Origin: a virus
Length of the DNA stretch: 28,210 bases
Virus record (IMG/VR): IMGVR_UViG_3300017757_000100
Span: 1-28,210 of that record
Direction: 5' to 3' (one strand)
Shown: positions 8,312 through 15,939 of the stretch, one piece after another
How positions within the stretch are numbered: the first letter of the stretch is position 1
Layout of the letters: each line of letters opens with the position of its first letter
The notes under the pieces: generated by a model
Told to the model about the DNA's origin: nothing
What the model saw: only the letters and a program-made list of their open reading frames with translations
The model's database searches: none
Made by a program: the position numbers and the translations under genes

Positions 8312-9792
8312 TGCCTGCAAATTGGAGTTCATTTATAAGTAATGTTGAGAGTTATATTATCTCTCAACCCCCTTCTCCTACTGAATTAGGAAAGCATATA
8401 GCTAAGGAGTATCATACAGCAATTAAACAATCACAATCAATGTGGGGACAAACTCATGTTTCTGGTAGTAATAGCGGTTTATTATCTACATATGGAACTC
8501 AATTTGAAAGAATGAAAGAAGAACATGAAGAACTTCAACCAACTCTTTGGAATAAAGTAGATGAAGATGGAAATGAAATACCATTTACTGGTAGAACAAG
8601 CGATCCGAATAATCCAAATCCCGCACAACCAGACCCTGAATATGCCGACCCTGATATGGAAGAGGTTCAACCTCCTCCAATAGACCCAGAAAAGATGCGT
8701 GATTTTTTAGGTGAATATAGTTCAGAATATGATTTACATGAATATGAGTTTTTTGAATTTGTTTTAGTTGGTGGCGAAACAAAAGATGAGGTATCATATA
8801 TAATATCGAATCGAATATTATTTACTCTAATGTCAGAATCTAGCGGAAGTAAACGAAAAAAGATAGTAGAGTGGGTAGATAGTTTTGGAACATGGGAAGA
8901 AGGAGGCTTAACGAACTCAGATGCGTATGCTGCATTTAAGAGTGACGTTGAGTCAGCAATAAGTGATGGTGGTTATAGTTCTTCATATATTATAGACAAA
9001 GTTAAATCAAGAACACTTGATAAACTTAAATCTTCTTATAATGAAACTAATCTTGGAGAATTAAAAACTAAAGCTAAAAATGGTAAACCATCAGAAATGA
9101 AATATCATGAAAATTATAATAAAGATTTTCTTAAAACATATGCACAATTAGAGTTTGATGAAGATAATGATGACGATGATTATAAAGTTTCTCCTATTTT
9201 ATTAAAAGAATTTATATGTTATTTTTCATTTACTGGAAGAGACAAATCCTCTGAATGGAAGGATAGTCAAGTTGAGTCTGAATATATTGACGGTGAAATG
9301 GGAGACTGGGCAGAGATAGTAACGCCACAGACTGCTGATGACGTTGTCAATAATAAAAATAAAGCTGCACCTTACATGTATACTAGGCAGCAAACTGTTG
9401 ATGCGCTTGACGAGGCAGATAATAGCGAAGTAGGCGAGGATCCGTATGAAATGCTAGCAGAAGAGACTATACAATATTGGAAAGATACAACAACACAACC
9501 ATTAAAATCTACACCTCCTGCCCCTCCATGTTTATCAAAGAATCCATTAGGTGGAACTTATATTGGAGTATATTATGGAAGTAAAAAGAAATTAGCCGAA
9601 GGTTTAAGAAAAGCATTAAATGCAGGTAAAGAATCTGATAATATACCAGAAGCTGCTAACATGGTTGCGACAGCCCTTTCAGTGGCTTATGCCAAACATT
9701 TAATGGAACTTAAGTTCATATATTTAGGAGGTATACCTGTTCCTCTTGTACCATACGTGCCTATGATTGGTTTTGTGCCAAATGTGTTCTAA
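8311..9792 (+). CDS. Unknown tail-tip protein following the spike (493 aa)
   Basis: No family is recognised with certainty. The N-terminus (WSSFISNVESYIISQPPSPT, then EYHTAIKQSQSMWG) resembles a helical subunit-contact region. Residues about 90-130 form a Pro/Asp/Glu-rich hinge (NNPNPAQPDPEYADPDMEE). Residues 140-400 are acidic and mainly helical. The C-terminal 95 residues are strikingly different: PPAPPCLSKNPLGGTYIGVYYG, then VATALSVAYAKHLMELKF, ending in a Pro/Val-rich hydrophobic tail (PVPLVPYVPMIGFVPNVF). The gene is coupled to the spike gene by a one-base overlap (TAATG) and is the last before an apparent promoter. A role with the spike, as tip, plug or chaperone, is suggested by position only. 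Confidence 0.7.
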   Translation: MPANWSSFISNVESYIISQPPSPTELGKHIAKEYHTAIKQSQSMWGQTHVSGSNSGLLSTYGTQFERMKEEHEELQPTLWNKVDEDGNEIPFTGRTSDPNNPNPAQPDPEYADPDMEEVQPPPIDPEKMRDFLGEYSSEYDLHEYEFFEFVLVGGETKDEVSYIISNRILFTLMSESSGSKRKKIVEWVDSFGTWEEGGLTNSDAYAAFKSDVESAISDGGYSSSYIIDKVKSRTLDKLKSSYNETNLGELKTKAKNGKPSEMKYHENYNKDFLKTYAQLEFDEDNDDDDYKVSPILLKEFICYFSFTGRDKSSEWKDSQVESEYIDGEMGDWAEIVTPQTADDVVNNKNKAAPYMYTRQQTVDALDEADNSEVGEDPYEMLAEETIQYWKDTTTQPLKSTPPAPPCLSKNPLGGTYIGVYYGSKKKLAEGLRKALNAGKESDNIPEAANMVATALSVAYAKHLMELKFIYLGGIPVPLVPYVPMIGFVPNVF

Positions 9793-9848: not shown

Positions 9849-11054
9849 ATGTCAAAGGAAACCGTTGTTGATACAAACAACATAGACAAGAAAAAACCAG
9901 AATTCGATTGGGATGCATTAGAAGCAAGCTGTCCAAGTACAAGAAGAAAAAGAGCAAAAAGATTAAAAAACGGAACAAAGATATTTTGTACTGAACCATA
10001 CGCTGAAGAAGCACTAAAACTTTACAACCAAGATTTTACTGAAAATAATAGGATAGTTGGTGTTGAACTAAATAAATCCTATGAAGGAACTGTCGATTCA
10101 ATTAGCGTCGAGTGGTGTACTATTGATATTGGAGCTAGAGACTCTGTGTATGTAGATATGTCAAAAGAAGCAGAAGAGTACAAGAACTTATTAAAACCTG
10201 GAGAAAAGATTAATGTTCAAATAATAGAATCTAAAGGTTCTAAACAAGGAAAATATATATTAGGTTCAGTTGAAGCTGGATTTAAGCGCGCAGTATTTAA
10301 TGAAATTTTAGATAGTGTAGATAATTCTAAAACTGCATATAACTCCACTGTAAAAAGTATTATACCAGGTGGAGGTTATATTGTAGAAATACAGGGTATA
10401 GAATGTTTTATGCCAGGTTCTTTAGCTGGAATAAATAAGCTACATGATTTTGAATCTATATTAGGAACTGAAATGTATGTGGTACCTATGAATTATTCTT
10501 CTGATAGAGGAACTATTGTAGTATCTCATAGAGAATATTTGAAGGCAATGATTCCTACTAAAATTGCTGAAATAAAAGAATATGAAAATGGAGTTGTAGT
10601 TAAAGGTAGCGTAACAGGTTCTGCTAAGTTTGGAGTATTCTGTGAATTTAACGAGTGCTTAACTGGTATGATTCATATAAATGATTTAGATGAAGAAACT
10701 CTAAAAAGACATAAAGATAGAGAGATTACACCAGGAGAGGAAATAGAATTCTTTATTAAGAAAATTATTTCAGATACTAAGATTACGTTATCTCAAAAGC
10801 CTGTTGAGGCGGTGACTGATCCGTGGTTTAATGCTTCTGAAAGATTTAAGACTCCTATCGAGGTTGTCGGTAAGGTTAGATCGGTTAAAGACTATGGCGT
10901 ATTTGTTGATATTGGAGATGGCCTTGTAGGGTTACTGCATGTATCTGAATTCCCTGAAGGACATGATTTGAATGAACTTATAAAAGGAAATGACATCACT
11001 GTCACTGTTACGAGAATTGATGAAGAGACTCGTAAAGTTTTCCTTAAATTATGA
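9849..11054 (+). CDS. Ribosomal protein S1-like protein with four S1 RNA-binding domains (401 aa)
   Basis: Four consecutive S1/OB domains are seen at residues about 76-141, 165-230, 249-318 and 336-401. The fourth is canonical: VVGKVRSVKDYGVFVDIGDG, then GLVGLLHVSEF, then VTVTRIDEETRKVFLKL. The N-terminus contains PEFDWDALEAS, very like the FDWDA(F/Y)E region I recall from Bacteroidota S1, and domain 2 keeps the S1 pattern ECFMPGSLAGINKLHDF and IVVSHREYLKA. Cellular S1 of this phylum has six domains, so this matches its first four, shortened. S1 recruits mRNA to the 30S subunit, which matters especially where Shine-Dalgarno pairing is unused. A phage copy may steer ribosomes to phage mRNAs, or act in RNA handling; that role is inferred. 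The AATAAAACAA leader has no Shine-Dalgarno element. Confidence 0.88.
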   Translation: MSKETVVDTNNIDKKKPEFDWDALEASCPSTRRKRAKRLKNGTKIFCTEPYAEEALKLYNQDFTENNRIVGVELNKSYEGTVDSISVEWCTIDIGARDSVYVDMSKEAEEYKNLLKPGEKINVQIIESKGSKQGKYILGSVEAGFKRAVFNEILDSVDNSKTAYNSTVKSIIPGGGYIVEIQGIECFMPGSLAGINKLHDFESILGTEMYVVPMNYSSDRGTIVVSHREYLKAMIPTKIAEIKEYENGVVVKGSVTGSAKFGVFCEFNECLTGMIHINDLDEETLKRHKDREITPGEEIEFFIKKIISDTKITLSQKPVEAVTDPWFNASERFKTPIEVVGKVRSVKDYGVFVDIGDGLVGLLHVSEFPEGHDLNELIKGNDITVTVTRIDEETRKVFLKL

Positions 11055-11533: not shown

Positions 11534-11562
11534 AATCCCATTCGTATGAGTGGGATTTTTTT
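11534..11562 (+). terminator. Rho-independent terminator
   Basis: A stem of ten pairs (AATCCCATTC with GAGTGGGATT, one G-T wobble) around a GTAT loop is followed by seven T residues. It closes the S1-like/tagged-protein cassette and is the only clear intrinsic terminator I see in the window. Confidence 0.9.
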
Positions 11563-11573
11563 ATGTTCAAAAA

Positions 11574-11590
11574 ATTAAGATATATAAATC
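11574..11590 (+). promoter_or_regulatory. Late-promoter-like motif upstream of the amidoligase-like gene
   Basis: ATTAAGATATATAAATC lies 26-42 nt before the ATG at 11616 and just after the terminator. Of the six copies it comes closest to T4 TATAAATA (TATAAATC). Its place after a terminator makes a promoter here likely, since the downstream genes need a new start. Confidence 0.55.
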
Positions 11591-11615
11591 AACTTAAGTT
11601 ATATAAATAGCAATA

Positions 11616-12908
11616 ATGAACAGATTTAACGACGCAGAAATATTATCAAAATCTCTAGTGGGGGTAGAGTTTGAATTCTACTCGAATAAAGATATAAACA
11701 CAACAGCTAAAGAGCTTGGTGCGCTATTATCTAAAAAAATTAGAGTTGAAGACAAGGCGCATAGTGATTTTATCGTTACTGATAAAGTATTCAAAATAGA
11801 ACCAGATATGAGTGGTGGAGAGAAGCTCATGGAGTTAGTTACTGGGGCGATACCATACAATGATGCAAGACTCATGATTATTCGAGTTTCTGAGTGGATT
11901 AAATTACATGGATATACAAACGACAGAACATCGATTCACTTAAATCTTTCATTTGATAAAAATAAACTAAAAAATAAAAATAGAATATTAAAAATGAATG
12001 TTCTTAAGTTTATTTTAGAATTTGATGAGGACACCGTATTTAATATATTTCCACAAAGAGAAAATTCAGCATACGCCAAGTCTATAAAGTTTATACTTCC
12101 AAATTCAGAAACATTTAATATTGATGGTGATTTAATCGATGAAAATAATTTTATATTTCCAAATTCAAAATACTATGGCATTAATTTTGAGAAGAGAATT
12201 AAAAATTATTTAGAGTTTAGGTATATAGGCGGTAAAGAATGGGAAACAAAAACTAGTAAAATATTAAGTCTATTAGATTCATTTTTAGTTCAACTATGGA
12301 AAAGTACAGAATCTAAAAAATTTACACACTTCAATTCATTAGAACTTAAAAAAATTCTTTCTAGTAATAAAAGAATTATAGATGCAAGAACTAACTGGAA
12401 AGTAATTGAAAAGAAATGGAAAAATATTGATTTTACCGTTGACTTATCTAAAGATGCAAATATTATACAGAATTTTTGGTCAACTATCCATAAAAAAGTC
12501 ATAAAATTATTTACACACGGTTCTATTTCTAAGGGCCATATAAATTATGATTCCGATACTGGAAAGATTCAAGTTAAGGATGGTGAATTATCTTATTGCG
12601 TGGCTCTAGAAGGATATGATTTTATAGATTGCGATATTAGAGGTGAATTATCACAGTGCGATATATTTGGTGGTAATACAAATGATTCAGATGTGATAGA
12701 TTGTAATTTCTATAATGGTGCTAAAATAAAATCATCTAAAATTAAAAGCTCCTATGTTAGTGTAGATTCTAATGCAGAAGATTGTTATATTTATGGTAAG
12801 GGTATGTTCAAAGGAGAAATGACAGGTGGTATATTTAGAGAAGGTATATATGATAAAAAGAAAGCAAGGTTTGATAAGACTGAGAAAATAAAATATGAAG
12901 AAAAATAA
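11616..12908 (+). CDS. Amidoligase (COOH-NH2 ligase)-like protein with C-terminal repeat solenoid (430 aa)
   Basis: Residues 1-220 carry the signature spacing of the amidoligase/glutamate-cysteine-ligase-like fold: G16-V-E-F-E20 (metal-binding acids), then IEPDMSGGEKLMELVTG (E62, D64, E73), then SIHLNLSF (H108), then YLEFRYIGG (E200, R202), as in the 'VEFR' motif that ends the fold. The family uses ATP to form amide or peptide-like bonds between a carboxylate and an amine. Residues about 330-415 are a different domain of short imperfect repeats with Cys/Asp/Gly-rich turns (YDFIDCDIRGELSQCDIFGG, VIDCNFYNGAKIKSS), resembling a pentapeptide or beta-solenoid stack. It is placed between a terminator and the neck protein gene, so it is probably late. 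Its substrate is unknown. Confidence 0.68.
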   Translation: MNRFNDAEILSKSLVGVEFEFYSNKDINTTAKELGALLSKKIRVEDKAHSDFIVTDKVFKIEPDMSGGEKLMELVTGAIPYNDARLMIIRVSEWIKLHGYTNDRTSIHLNLSFDKNKLKNKNRILKMNVLKFILEFDEDTVFNIFPQRENSAYAKSIKFILPNSETFNIDGDLIDENNFIFPNSKYYGINFEKRIKNYLEFRYIGGKEWETKTSKILSLLDSFLVQLWKSTESKKFTHFNSLELKKILSSNKRIIDARTNWKVIEKKWKNIDFTVDLSKDANIIQNFWSTIHKKVIKLFTHGSISKGHINYDSDTGKIQVKDGELSYCVALEGYDFIDCDIRGELSQCDIFGGNTNDSDVIDCNFYNGAKIKSSKIKSSYVSVDSNAEDCYIYGKGMFKGEMTGGIFREGIYDKKKARFDKTEKIKYEEK

Positions 12909-12919
12909 AATAAAAGGAT

Positions 12920-13729
12920 ATGAGTAATATATTTTTAGGTGGTGCATCAGGCATGGAGACAGAACAAACATATAGCTCGACGTGTTTAGCTGATTTTGCC
13001 ACAGAATTAGCAGATGAAATTACAGGCGCATGTATGATTCCAATGAATCTTCCATCATCTGAGGTTGAAGCAATTGTTAATAGAGCTAAAAAATGGTTCT
13101 ATAAAAAATATGAATATTCTGTTCAAGAGAATTTCTTTGTAATACCTAAAGCCGCATTTGAATCAACTTATTTCAAGGCATCAAGAACTATCAACATGCC
13201 AGCGGGCGTATATTCTATTTTTGGTGTTCATAAAACTAATGCGAGTTCTATAAGTAATGATGTAGACTTCCAAGCTGGTTCAGATTTTAATGTAGAACGA
13301 ATGTTTACTGCAAATATGTACGGAAATGCTGGAGTAGCAGGTGCAGCAGAACAATTAGAATATTATATAGTAAGTCAGAAGTTCTTTGATTTAGCACGAC
13401 AAGTATTACAGAACCCGTATAGTTTTGACTATAATAGACTTAATAGAGCTTTAAGATTTACTGGAGAAACTCCAACATCTGATATTATATTAGAGGTTTA
13501 TGAAACTATTCCAGACTGCGCGTTGTTTCAAGATGAGATGTTTTTTAGATATTGTTCAGCTAAAATAAAGATTTCTCTTGGTTCTAAATTAAGTATTTTC
13601 GAGTTCCAACTACCTGGTAATATAACTGTTAATGGAAGCGCGATACAAGATATGGGAACAAGCGAACTTGAGGGTATAATAGAAGAAATAAATATGGATG
13701 AGGGAACTGACTGGATGATGCACTCATAA
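12920..13729 (+). CDS. gp13: Neck protein, T4 gp13-like (269 aa)
   Basis: Layout matches T4 gp13 (309 aa), which with gp14 closes the head vertex after packaging and joins head to tail. The N-terminal helical region (SSEVEAIVNRAKKWFYKKYE, residues about 43-62) precedes a beta segment with INMPAGVYSIFGVHKTNAS, like the 'FDLR...V..I..I' stretch of gp13. Near the C-terminus, DIILEVYETIPD and a helix with FFRYCSAKIKISLGSKL are followed by QLPGNITVNGSAIQDMGTSE, which aligns with the gp13 stretch [20 protein letters not shown]. In T4 gene 13 lies after 12 and wac, away from 25; here it directly precedes the gp25-like gene. The assignment rests on remembered T4 sequence. Confidence 0.62.
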   Translation: MSNIFLGGASGMETEQTYSSTCLADFATELADEITGACMIPMNLPSSEVEAIVNRAKKWFYKKYEYSVQENFFVIPKAAFESTYFKASRTINMPAGVYSIFGVHKTNASSISNDVDFQAGSDFNVERMFTANMYGNAGVAGAAEQLEYYIVSQKFFDLARQVLQNPYSFDYNRLNRALRFTGETPTSDIILEVYETIPDCALFQDEMFFRYCSAKIKISLGSKLSIFEFQLPGNITVNGSAIQDMGTSELEGIIEEINMDEGTDWMMHS

Positions 13730-13746: not shown

Positions 13747-14100
13747 ATGGAATTTTATATAAAGAAATACGGAGACCCTAAATTTGATGTAAGTCAAATG
13801 GAAGTTGATGATGAGATTACAGAGATTTTAATTCAATTAGAAACTTTGTTATTTACAACTAAAGGTTCTGTACTAGGCGATCCAGATTTTGGTTTGAATT
13901 TAGATGATTATGTATATTCTTTTAGATATAATGATAATATGTTGGTTAAAATTATTAGAGAAGACATTAATAGGTTTGTACCACTATCAAAAAAATATAA
14001 TGTAGACACTTCTGTTGTTTTTACAGATGAAGTTGATAGACACTTAGTGTTTGTTAGTATCGTTGTAGATTCTAAGTATCAGGTCGGTCTTTACATATAA
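13747..14100 (+). CDS. gp25: Baseplate wedge protein, gp25/gpW-like (117 aa)
   Basis: Clear member of the GPW/gp25 family, the small wedge protein that connects the gp6-gp7 core to the sheath and starts sheath polymerisation. Residues 38-57 hold the hallmark: TKGSVLGDPDFGLNLDDYVY, equal to the T4 stretch RKGSRPFDPEFGCDLSDQLF. A long helix precedes it and the expected helix (NMLVKIIREDINRFVP) and strand pair (DTSVVFTDEV, FVSIVVDS) follow. T4 gp25 is 132 aa. Choosing ATG 13747 keeps the N-terminal residues of the family; the internal ATG at 13798 would remove them. The gp6-like gene starts 15 nt downstream, the order gp25-gp6-gp7 being typical of P2-like phages and contractile injection systems. 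Confidence 0.93.
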   Translation: MEFYIKKYGDPKFDVSQMEVDDEITEILIQLETLLFTTKGSVLGDPDFGLNLDDYVYSFRYNDNMLVKIIREDINRFVPLSKKYNVDTSVVFTDEVDRHLVFVSIVVDSKYQVGLYI

Positions 14101-14115
14101 ACATTAACAATTAAA

Positions 14116-15939
14116 ATGGAATATAAATTCAAATATTTAGAAAAGTCTAGAATCAAGACAAAAGAAATGATAAGTGATACTCAAACTTTTATAAGTAGAG
14201 TATATAATAGAGCAGGGACTCTATTCACGTCTGCATCACCATTTGCCCAAATATTAAATGTATTACAAGAACTTTCAAGTTTTATTTTCCTTTATATAGA
14301 AGATGCAATGGTAGAACAAAACATATTAACTGCACAGCATAAAGAATCTGTATATGGTTTATCAAGACTTGCAGGTCACGATCCATTTAGAGGCTCTTCT
14401 GCTCAGGGCGAAATAAGAATAAGATTAAATCCAACAACGGTTGCTGAGGTAGCTGGAGATGCTGTTAATATACTACCAGATAGTATAATTAAAATGGAAG
14501 CTAATAGTCTAAAATATACTATGCTAACTAATTCAGATAAATTTAGAATTTCAAAAACAACTTCTACGTTTATTAGAATACCTATAATTCAAGGAGAGGT
14601 TGAAAGACAAACCGTAACCGGTACTGGAGAAAAGTTTCAATCTTTTAATATAATAACTAAAGGAAATACTGACCACAATCATGTTAAGGTTTCTGTAAAT
14701 AGTATTCCATGGGAGAAATATAGTTCTATATATGATATGAAGGTTGGAACTACCGGGTTTATAGTAAAAACTGGGATTACTGGAGGATTGGATGTTTATT
14801 TTGGAAATGGGAGTTTTGGAGCTCTTCCTCCATTAGGAAGTTCTATAGAAATTCAATATATTAAAAATCAAGGTGATAATGGAAATTTAATTGGAGGCAA
14901 AAATTTAAGATTTAAGTTTGAGTCTGAAGGGTTTGATAGTATAGGAAATTCATATGACTTAAATGAACTATTAGATACTGAAGTATCAGTAACGCCTAGA
15001 ATGGGCTCAAATCCTGAAAGTATAGAACTTACAAAACTTATCGCTCCACTACAATCACATGGATTTGTATTGGCTACTCCAGATAATTATGAGGCATTTT
15101 TATCTCAATATGGTATGTTTTCATATTTAGATGCATATAGTACTACTGATGATGGATATTTAGACGATGATAATGTTATCTATTTATTTATGTTGCCGGA
15201 TGTTAAGAGAAAACTTGTACAAAATAAAGATTATTTTAGTTTAGAGCTTGATGAATTCTTCTTTTCTGAAGATGAAGAAAACGCGGTGCTTAATATAATT
15301 GAAAAATCAGGTAGACAAATGTTAACTTCTGAAATTAAAATTACTCCTCCGTCACCTCAATATTTTAGAATGGATATTAAAGTAAGATATTTTGAAGGAT
15401 ATGATAAGCACAGCATTTTTAATGATATAAGAGCTCAAATATCAGAATATCTAGTACATATTACTCGTAGAGATAGATTACCAAAATCTGATATAATAGC
15501 TATACTAGAAGGCGTTAAAGGTATAGACTCTGTTAATGTAAGATTTGTTAGTAAGGCAGAAGAAGAGGCAAGAAAAAATGGTTATTATGTTTCAGAAACC
15601 GTGACTATTACACCAAATACTCCAATACTTGAAGATATAGGTAACGGTCAACAAAAGATGGTATTTTTCAAAAGAACAGTTAAGAAAAGAAATGTTAGAT
15701 TTGAAAAAGATGCGGCTCTTCCAGAAAATGTAATAAATTTAGATTCATTTGGAGATATTCTTTTAGAAAAAGATGAGGTTGCATTATTTAGAGGTGGTTG
15801 GCAAGATAGAGACGATATATTAGTAGAAGATGACGCTTTAATTGGAGAAATGGGAGCATTATCAGTTTACTTTGATGAGCCTCCAGTTCCTCAAACTATA
15901 TTTACTAGAGTTCAGGCAAAAAATAGAAAATCAATATAA
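14116..15939 (+). CDS. gp6: Baseplate wedge protein, gp6/gpJ-like (607 aa)
   Basis: Wedge-core protein of the gp6/gpJ (baseplate_J) family; in T4 two copies per wedge form the inner ring of the baseplate and drive its opening. T4 gp6 is 660 aa. The N-terminal helix region is followed by the family-like LSRLAGHDPFRGSSAQGEIR (residues about 83-102). Beta-rich segments follow (VYFGNGSFGALPPLGSSIEI, the typical 'FGdG..G..P..G..i' motif). Residues about 445-478 contain EYLVHITRRDRLPKSDIIAI followed by VKGIDSVNVRF, the C-terminal alpha/beta unit by which gp6 subunits dimerise. The gene lies between gp25-like and gp7-like genes, as expected. It ends with a one-base overlap (TAATG). Confidence 0.88.
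   Translation: MEYKFKYLEKSRIKTKEMISDTQTFISRVYNRAGTLFTSASPFAQILNVLQELSSFIFLYIEDAMVEQNILTAQHKESVYGLSRLAGHDPFRGSSAQGEIRIRLNPTTVAEVAGDAVNILPDSIIKMEANSLKYTMLTNSDKFRISKTTSTFIRIPIIQGEVERQTVTGTGEKFQSFNIITKGNTDHNHVKVSVNSIPWEKYSSIYDMKVGTTGFIVKTGITGGLDVYFGNGSFGALPPLGSSIEIQYIKNQGDNGNLIGGKNLRFKFESEGFDSIGNSYDLNELLDTEVSVTPRMGSNPESIELTKLIAPLQSHGFVLATPDNYEAFLSQYGMFSYLDAYSTTDDGYLDDDNVIYLFMLPDVKRKLVQNKDYFSLELDEFFFSEDEENAVLNIIEKSGRQMLTSEIKITPPSPQYFRMDIKVRYFEGYDKHSIFNDIRAQISEYLVHITRRDRLPKSDIIAILEGVKGIDSVNVRFVSKAEEEARKNGYYVSETVTITPNTPILEDIGNGQQKMVFFKRTVKKRNVRFEKDAALPENVINLDSFGDILLEKDEVALFRGGWQDRDDILVEDDALIGEMGALSVYFDEPPVPQTIFTRVQAKNRKSI

Follow-up and report, generated by a model that had tools for sequence, protein, structure and literature searches.

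The gene at positions 11,616–12,908 of the window, by which we mean the whole 28,210-base virus record that was analyzed, encodes a real, conserved, and unusual enzyme. The family is known, and what sets this member apart is its C-terminal solenoid and its setting in a structural module: the record contains tail, neck, and baseplate genes. Protein sequence comparisons and a structural model support the fold, the motifs, the solenoid, purifying selection, the genomic linkage, and a promoter-like motif upstream of the gene (Table 1).

Table 1. Features of the amidoligase-solenoid gene and its surroundings (positions in the window).
Feature	Position	Strand	Evidence
Amidoligase-solenoid gene	11616..12908	+	ATG start, 430 aa; 174 homologs, purifying selection
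Catalytic core, residues 1–210, GS/GCS fold	11616..12245	+	AlphaFold2 model, conservation
Motif GxExE, residues 16–20 (G16, E18, E20)	11661..11675	+	invariant, 174/174
Motif DxS...E, residues 64–73 (D64, S66, E73)	11805..11834	+	invariant, 174/174
Motif HxN, residues 108–110	11937..11945	+	H108 166/174, N110 166/174
Motif E-F-R, residues 200–202	12213..12221	+	E200 and R202 174/174; F201 136/174
Pentapeptide-like right-handed beta-solenoid, residues 301–415	12516..12860	+	model, profiles; invariant R408
Terminator-like hairpin before the ligase	11534..11557	+	10-pair stem, T run
Conserved promoter-like motif ATATATAAAYYAACTTAAGT, just upstream of the ligase	11580..11599	+	single exact match in the window
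gp5/VgrG-OB-like baseplate protein	starts 7589		PF04717
Ribosomal-S1-like protein, upstream neighbor (marine lineage)	9849..11054	+	PF00575, E 7e-20
Neck-like/head-tail adaptor, downstream neighbor	12920..13729	+	phrog_211, E 4e-14; resembles PTm1 "neck protein"
gp25-like baseplate wedge	13747..14100	+	PF04965, E 0.0011 (below cut-off); phrog_43, E 0.003
gp6-like baseplate wedge	14116..15939	+	phrog_219, E 7e-32

Homologs and the catalytic domain

Comparing the protein by itself to Pfam, PHROGs, NCBIfam, and PADLOC gave nothing useful, so homologs were needed. Searching viral contigs identified nine close relatives first, and two further searches found at least 555 aligned relatives and 327 aligned relatives; we retained 80 from each of these two larger searches. 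In all, we collected 174 homologs, and close pairs show dN of ~0.13–0.18 versus dS of ~0.9–2. This purifying selection is seen across all parts of the protein.

Among phage genomes, the matches were LR756500–504 and LR745206 (uncultured phages of 462–735 kb), at 31–42% identity, and gp196 of Agrobacterium phage Atu_ph07, which is 28% identical across 44% of the query. For uncultured phages of this kind, genomes of 634, 636, 642, and 735 kb have been reported as complete (PMC7162821). We found no relatives in bacterial or archaeal genomes, which is a weak negative as just two short peptide patterns were used, and phmmer against the PDB gave chance matches only. An NCBIfam match to a serine/threonine kinase was also due to chance (17.7 bits versus a cut-off of 194). 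We dropped the idea that the gene is part of a defense system because PADLOC gave no match.

An AlphaFold2 model built from 35 sequences (pLDDT 89.6, pTM 0.78) has the fold of glutamine synthetase and glutamate-cysteine ligase (GS/GCS) across residues ~1–300. Residues 1–302 match glutamine synthetases with a VIA Z of 11.2 (186 residues, 3.2 Å) and a Foldseek E-value of 1.6e-4, although sequence identity to glutamine synthetase or gamma-glutamylcysteine ligase is only 10–15%. The best viral fold matches, from BFVD, are phage proteins named "Amidoligase enzyme." PafA- or Dop-type protein ligases are absent from the best fold matches listed, which is uninformative either way. The sequence-only reading had proposed an amidoligase (COOH-NH2 ligase) fold, and the model bears this out rather than showing an unrelated fold.

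A profile search, which that reading had recommended, succeeded for relatives of the protein but not for the protein itself, which is too divergent to match Pfam's Amidoligase_2 (PF12224; cut-off 22 bits). A full-length homolog (L053) that is 62–63% identical scores 28.7 bits and Atu_ph07 gp196 scores 30.2 bits; at E ≤ 0.1, 15 of the 35 aligned members match. The enzyme class is well supported, and we are highly confident that the window's enzyme belongs to it.

When compared to distant members, the protein averages 41% identity in residues 1–210, 20% in residues 211–300, and 27% in the solenoid. Ten positions of the catalytic domain (G16, E18, E20, D64, S66, E73, R148, Y186, E200, and R202) are invariant across the 174 homologs. 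The order of the motifs (GxExE, DxS, E, HxN, R, KY, EFR) matches that of classical phage amidoligases: the invariants G-E-E, D-S, E, H, R, KY, and E-R are also present in seven of these, including the enzymes of LUZ24, RIO-1, and Bas94. For instance, G31-E33-E35 of LUZ24 gp18 is the ordered counterpart of GxExE, and according to hhalign, DxS...E is in register with D53 and E61 of that phage. hhalign places the same residues of this family and of the classical amidoligases in register, albeit with a low probability (9.8%; E = 0.0032). The protein shares its fold and motif order with Amidoligase_2 members such as LUZ24 gp18, RIO-1 gp13, and Atu_ph07 gp196, but the classical members have a histidine where it has N110, and the C-terminal beta-solenoid is its own feature.

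The earlier claim of conserved acidic residues, a conserved histidine, and an E-F-R motif holds in all 174 homologs for the acids and for E200 and R202, but the histidine is not strictly conserved. In eight homologs (L155 and a group among L169–L175), H108 is replaced by glutamine, always together with N110S. Because these eight keep every other invariant residue of the site, the substitutions seem more likely to reflect retuning than decay of the active site. The members with both substitutions look like two separate groups.

The C-terminal solenoid

When modeled alone, the solenoid is predicted with high confidence (pLDDT 96.5). Its five-residue hydrophobic periodicity (residues 340–379) exceeds the shuffled mean in all 111 distinct sequences, and it has profile matches to the pentapeptide-repeat structures AlbG, MfpA, and Qnr. 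These results and the modeled beta-solenoid agree with the earlier claim that the ligase is fused to a repeat solenoid. The extent is different: rather than the last 90 residues, the solenoid spans about residues 301–415, which is slightly longer.

The domain resembles pentapeptide-repeat proteins (MfpA, Qnr, and AlbG) in its five-residue periodicity and in the right-handed solenoid of its model, but it scores below the cut-offs of Pfam, and it is fused to a ligase. The best score to Pfam's pentapeptide models was 31.6 bits (cut-off 38); 21 of 35 members match weakly, and the window's protein does not match. As for a right-handed quadrilateral solenoid, the model's VIA Z score against 2j8k is 9.9, but other right-handed beta-helices are within one Z unit, and the Foldseek E-values are weak. 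Because unrelated beta-helices score so similarly and the Foldseek matches are weak, we describe residues 301–415, to be safe, as a pentapeptide-like right-handed solenoid rather than as an established member of the pentapeptide family.

Near the end of the solenoid, R408 is invariant in all 174 homologs despite the mean solenoid identity of just 27%. In the alignment, Atu_ph07 gp196 lacks the solenoid repeats. In a related contractile machine, a pentapeptide solenoid forms the C-terminal extension of an assembly factor (PMC11883445). That factor has no ligase domain; it is only an analogy.

Linkage to virion genes and expression signals

The sequence-only reading placed the gene among neck and baseplate genes, and profile matches to neck-like, gp25-like, gp6-like, and gp5/VgrG-OB-like proteins nearby confirm this (Table 1). 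To avoid selecting on the ligase, we used the neck and wedge proteins as queries and examined the nearest 80 loci per scan. The ligase is present in all 152 of the loci that have the neck gene and enough flanking sequence, and it is directly upstream of the neck gene, on the same strand, in 151 of them. Among the loci from the wedge query with enough flanking sequence, 69/69 contain the ligase. Because these fetched loci represent 72 distinct ligase sequences in ~43 clusters, from the nearest 80 loci per scan, we limit the claim of linkage to the window's lineage.

The whole block is kept in 11 of 39 representative lineages. In the 28 rearranged lineages, the order and strand of the genes differ; a structural gene is within 6 kb of the ligase in 19, and the other nine, including the 735-kb phage, have no recognizable structural gene within that distance. 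Atu_ph07 gp196 falls within CDS 170–215, which is one of three clusters that encode most of that phage's virion proteins (PMC6102473). Among more distantly related phages, two Lak phages, Chryseobacterium phage MA9V-2, and Tenacibaculum phages PTm1 and pT24 (which are T4-like relatives) have similar neck or wedge genes but no match to the ligase. The sequence-only reading had remarked that T4 has no comparable gene at this place, and PTm1, pT24, and the Lak phages are the relatives on which we can judge that remark.

Two other genes recur near the ligase. In the marine lineage, the structural block includes the S1-like gene as the ligase's immediate upstream neighbor (94/174 loci); its product matches NCBIfam's S1 models with E-values to 8e-49, under their cut-offs. 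Also, a protein of ~544 amino acids, which by eye resembles DHH phosphoesterases, recurs just after the ligase (in L012, L119, L116, and related huge-phage loci).

The promoter-like motif ATATATAAAYYAACTTAAGT is found once per matching fetched locus, in ~150 loci, many of which are overlapping records. In the distinct upstream regions that we inspected, it lies just before the ligase's start. Within the window, the + strand has six copies of the shorter sequence GATATATA (at 1857, 9799, 11066, 11579, 13734, and 22433) and the minus strand has none, and five of the six sites are 13–50 bp before genes of the block. This is consistent with GATATATA being a candidate late promoter that is common to the ligase and the structural genes. 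We considered a T4-type late promoter, TATAAATA, but dropped it as the main signal because its octamer is no more common than expected by chance (10 found versus 8.35 expected). The ATATATA element is better placed than that octamer, with AT-rich intergenic DNA as a confounder for it and for GATATATA. The terminator-like hairpin is a weak signal (one found versus 0.7 expected by chance). Between the ATATATA element and the ligase gene is the palindrome AACTTAAGTT (11591–11600), which many relatives retain and which is also found at 9707–9716, upstream of the S1-like gene. It is possibly an operator.

The ligase is not part of the known phage cassette of amidoligase and GATase. In phages like LUZ24 and RIO-1, the amidoligase lies in an early or metabolic region with a COOH.NH2 ligase, a GATase, an ATP-grasp protein, and GGCT. 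The window's lineage shares the Amidoligase_2 enzyme with the cassettes of LUZ24-, RIO-1-, and PSA-HP1-like phages, but those are among early genes, while the window's ligase stands alone in a structural block. Among 11 related phage records, we found neither GATase_6 (14/14 control genomes were positive) nor the COOH.NH2 ligase PF14395 (the LUZ24 control was positive). GGACT is present in four of the 11 records (LR745206, LR756502, LR756501, and the L148 contig), not adjacent to the ligase; these are gamma-glutamylamine cyclotransferases. The small Porphyromonas phages L362 and L363 also have short annotated amidoligases, separated by a few genes from a preceding adaptor gene, with no annotated GATase within the stretch shown.

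Possible substrates and significance

The explanation that we favor, although we put it at a little below an even chance, is a late-made, ATP-dependent amide ligase that carries a solenoid and modifies a neck, tail, or baseplate protein of the phage. By analogy to glutamine synthetase and gamma-glutamylcysteine ligase, the conserved acids and H108 would bind metal ions and the nucleotide. As in other members of the GS/GCS superfamily, ATP would phosphorylate the carboxylate of the substrate to form an acyl phosphate, and attack by an amine would then yield the amide bond. The ligase would be made together with the late virion genes, as judged from its upstream motif. Given the genomic context, the enzyme would most likely act while virions are assembled, adding an amino acid to one of the neck, tail, or baseplate proteins or forming an amide link on it, and the solenoid would dock the enzyme to this substrate. 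The solenoid might otherwise be a substrate, an anchor, or an arm for oligomerization.

We infer the catalysis, the late timing, the virion-protein substrate, and the role of docking from these comparisons. There are precedents for protein substrates: PafA, which has the glutamine synthetase fold, attaches Pup to proteins, and ribosomal protein S6 is glutamylated by RimK. Taken alone, the identification of the substrate as a virion protein is tentative, and we would not give it quite even chances. We are more doubtful about a bolder proposal, in which a self-contained ligase, guided by its solenoid, covalently amino-acylates or cross-links neck, tail, or baseplate proteins of myovirus particles as a fixed step of assembly across a widespread lineage. 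Several observations go against the favored explanation: gp196 lacks the solenoid, nine of the 28 rearranged lineages lack a nearby structural gene, and H108 is replaced in 8/174 homologs. Also, late timing and linkage would be compatible with a target in the wall or among host proteins.

The main rival is a wall substrate. Late in infection, the ligase might modify the host's wall or envelope (for instance, stem peptides of peptidoglycan) and so block superinfection or aid release. Modification of the cell wall or envelope has been proposed for members of the same family in phiEco32, LUZ24, and RIO-1 (PMC5498523, PMC10580990), and GGACT, a related partner, is encoded in four of the 11 records. 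However, GGACT is not adjacent to the ligase and is absent from the other seven records, and both GATase_6 and PF14395 are missing from all 11. The ligase gene also sits with structural genes rather than early ones, and no N-terminal export signal is evident by eye. The setting, the late-promoter-like motif, and the absence of the cassette's partners circumstantially favor a virion protein over the wall, the two options that the sequence-only reading had offered, and we consider a wall substrate to be unlikely. It seems improbable that the ligase makes a small molecule, either by joining free amino acids or metabolites or by modifying a nucleotide or cofactor. The relatives with solved structures, glutamine synthetase and glutamate-cysteine ligase, do use free amino acids, but a metabolic enzyme would not be expected to be linked to virion genes or to have a solenoid that is under purifying selection and contains a conserved residue of its own.

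The ligase fold might instead serve without catalysis, as a structural or scaffolding protein. Linkage to structural genes would fit, as would the joint replacement of H108 and N110 in eight homologs, but the rest of the site does not vary in any of the 174 homologs, these eight among them, and we view a noncatalytic role as quite improbable. Finally, because an S1-like gene is the upstream neighbor in the marine lineage (94/174 loci), the ligase could modify a translation protein, such as the adjacent S1-like protein, much as RimK modifies S6. We think that this is very improbable: in huge phages the S1-like gene is far from the ligase (for example, 684 kb versus 241 kb in LR756501), and structural genes are the more common neighbors.

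Phage amidoligases have been described as accessory genes with a presumed function in the cell wall (PMC5498523, PMC10580990). In a large marine lineage, this ligase appears to be a fixed member of a block of virion genes, and many giant phages encode it close to virion genes. Compared to the known phage amidoligases, it is missing the usual partner enzymes and has a dedicated solenoid. If it does modify a virion protein, this would be an unrecognized covalent step in the assembly of the tail or neck, and measuring the masses of virion proteins could reveal the amide modification.
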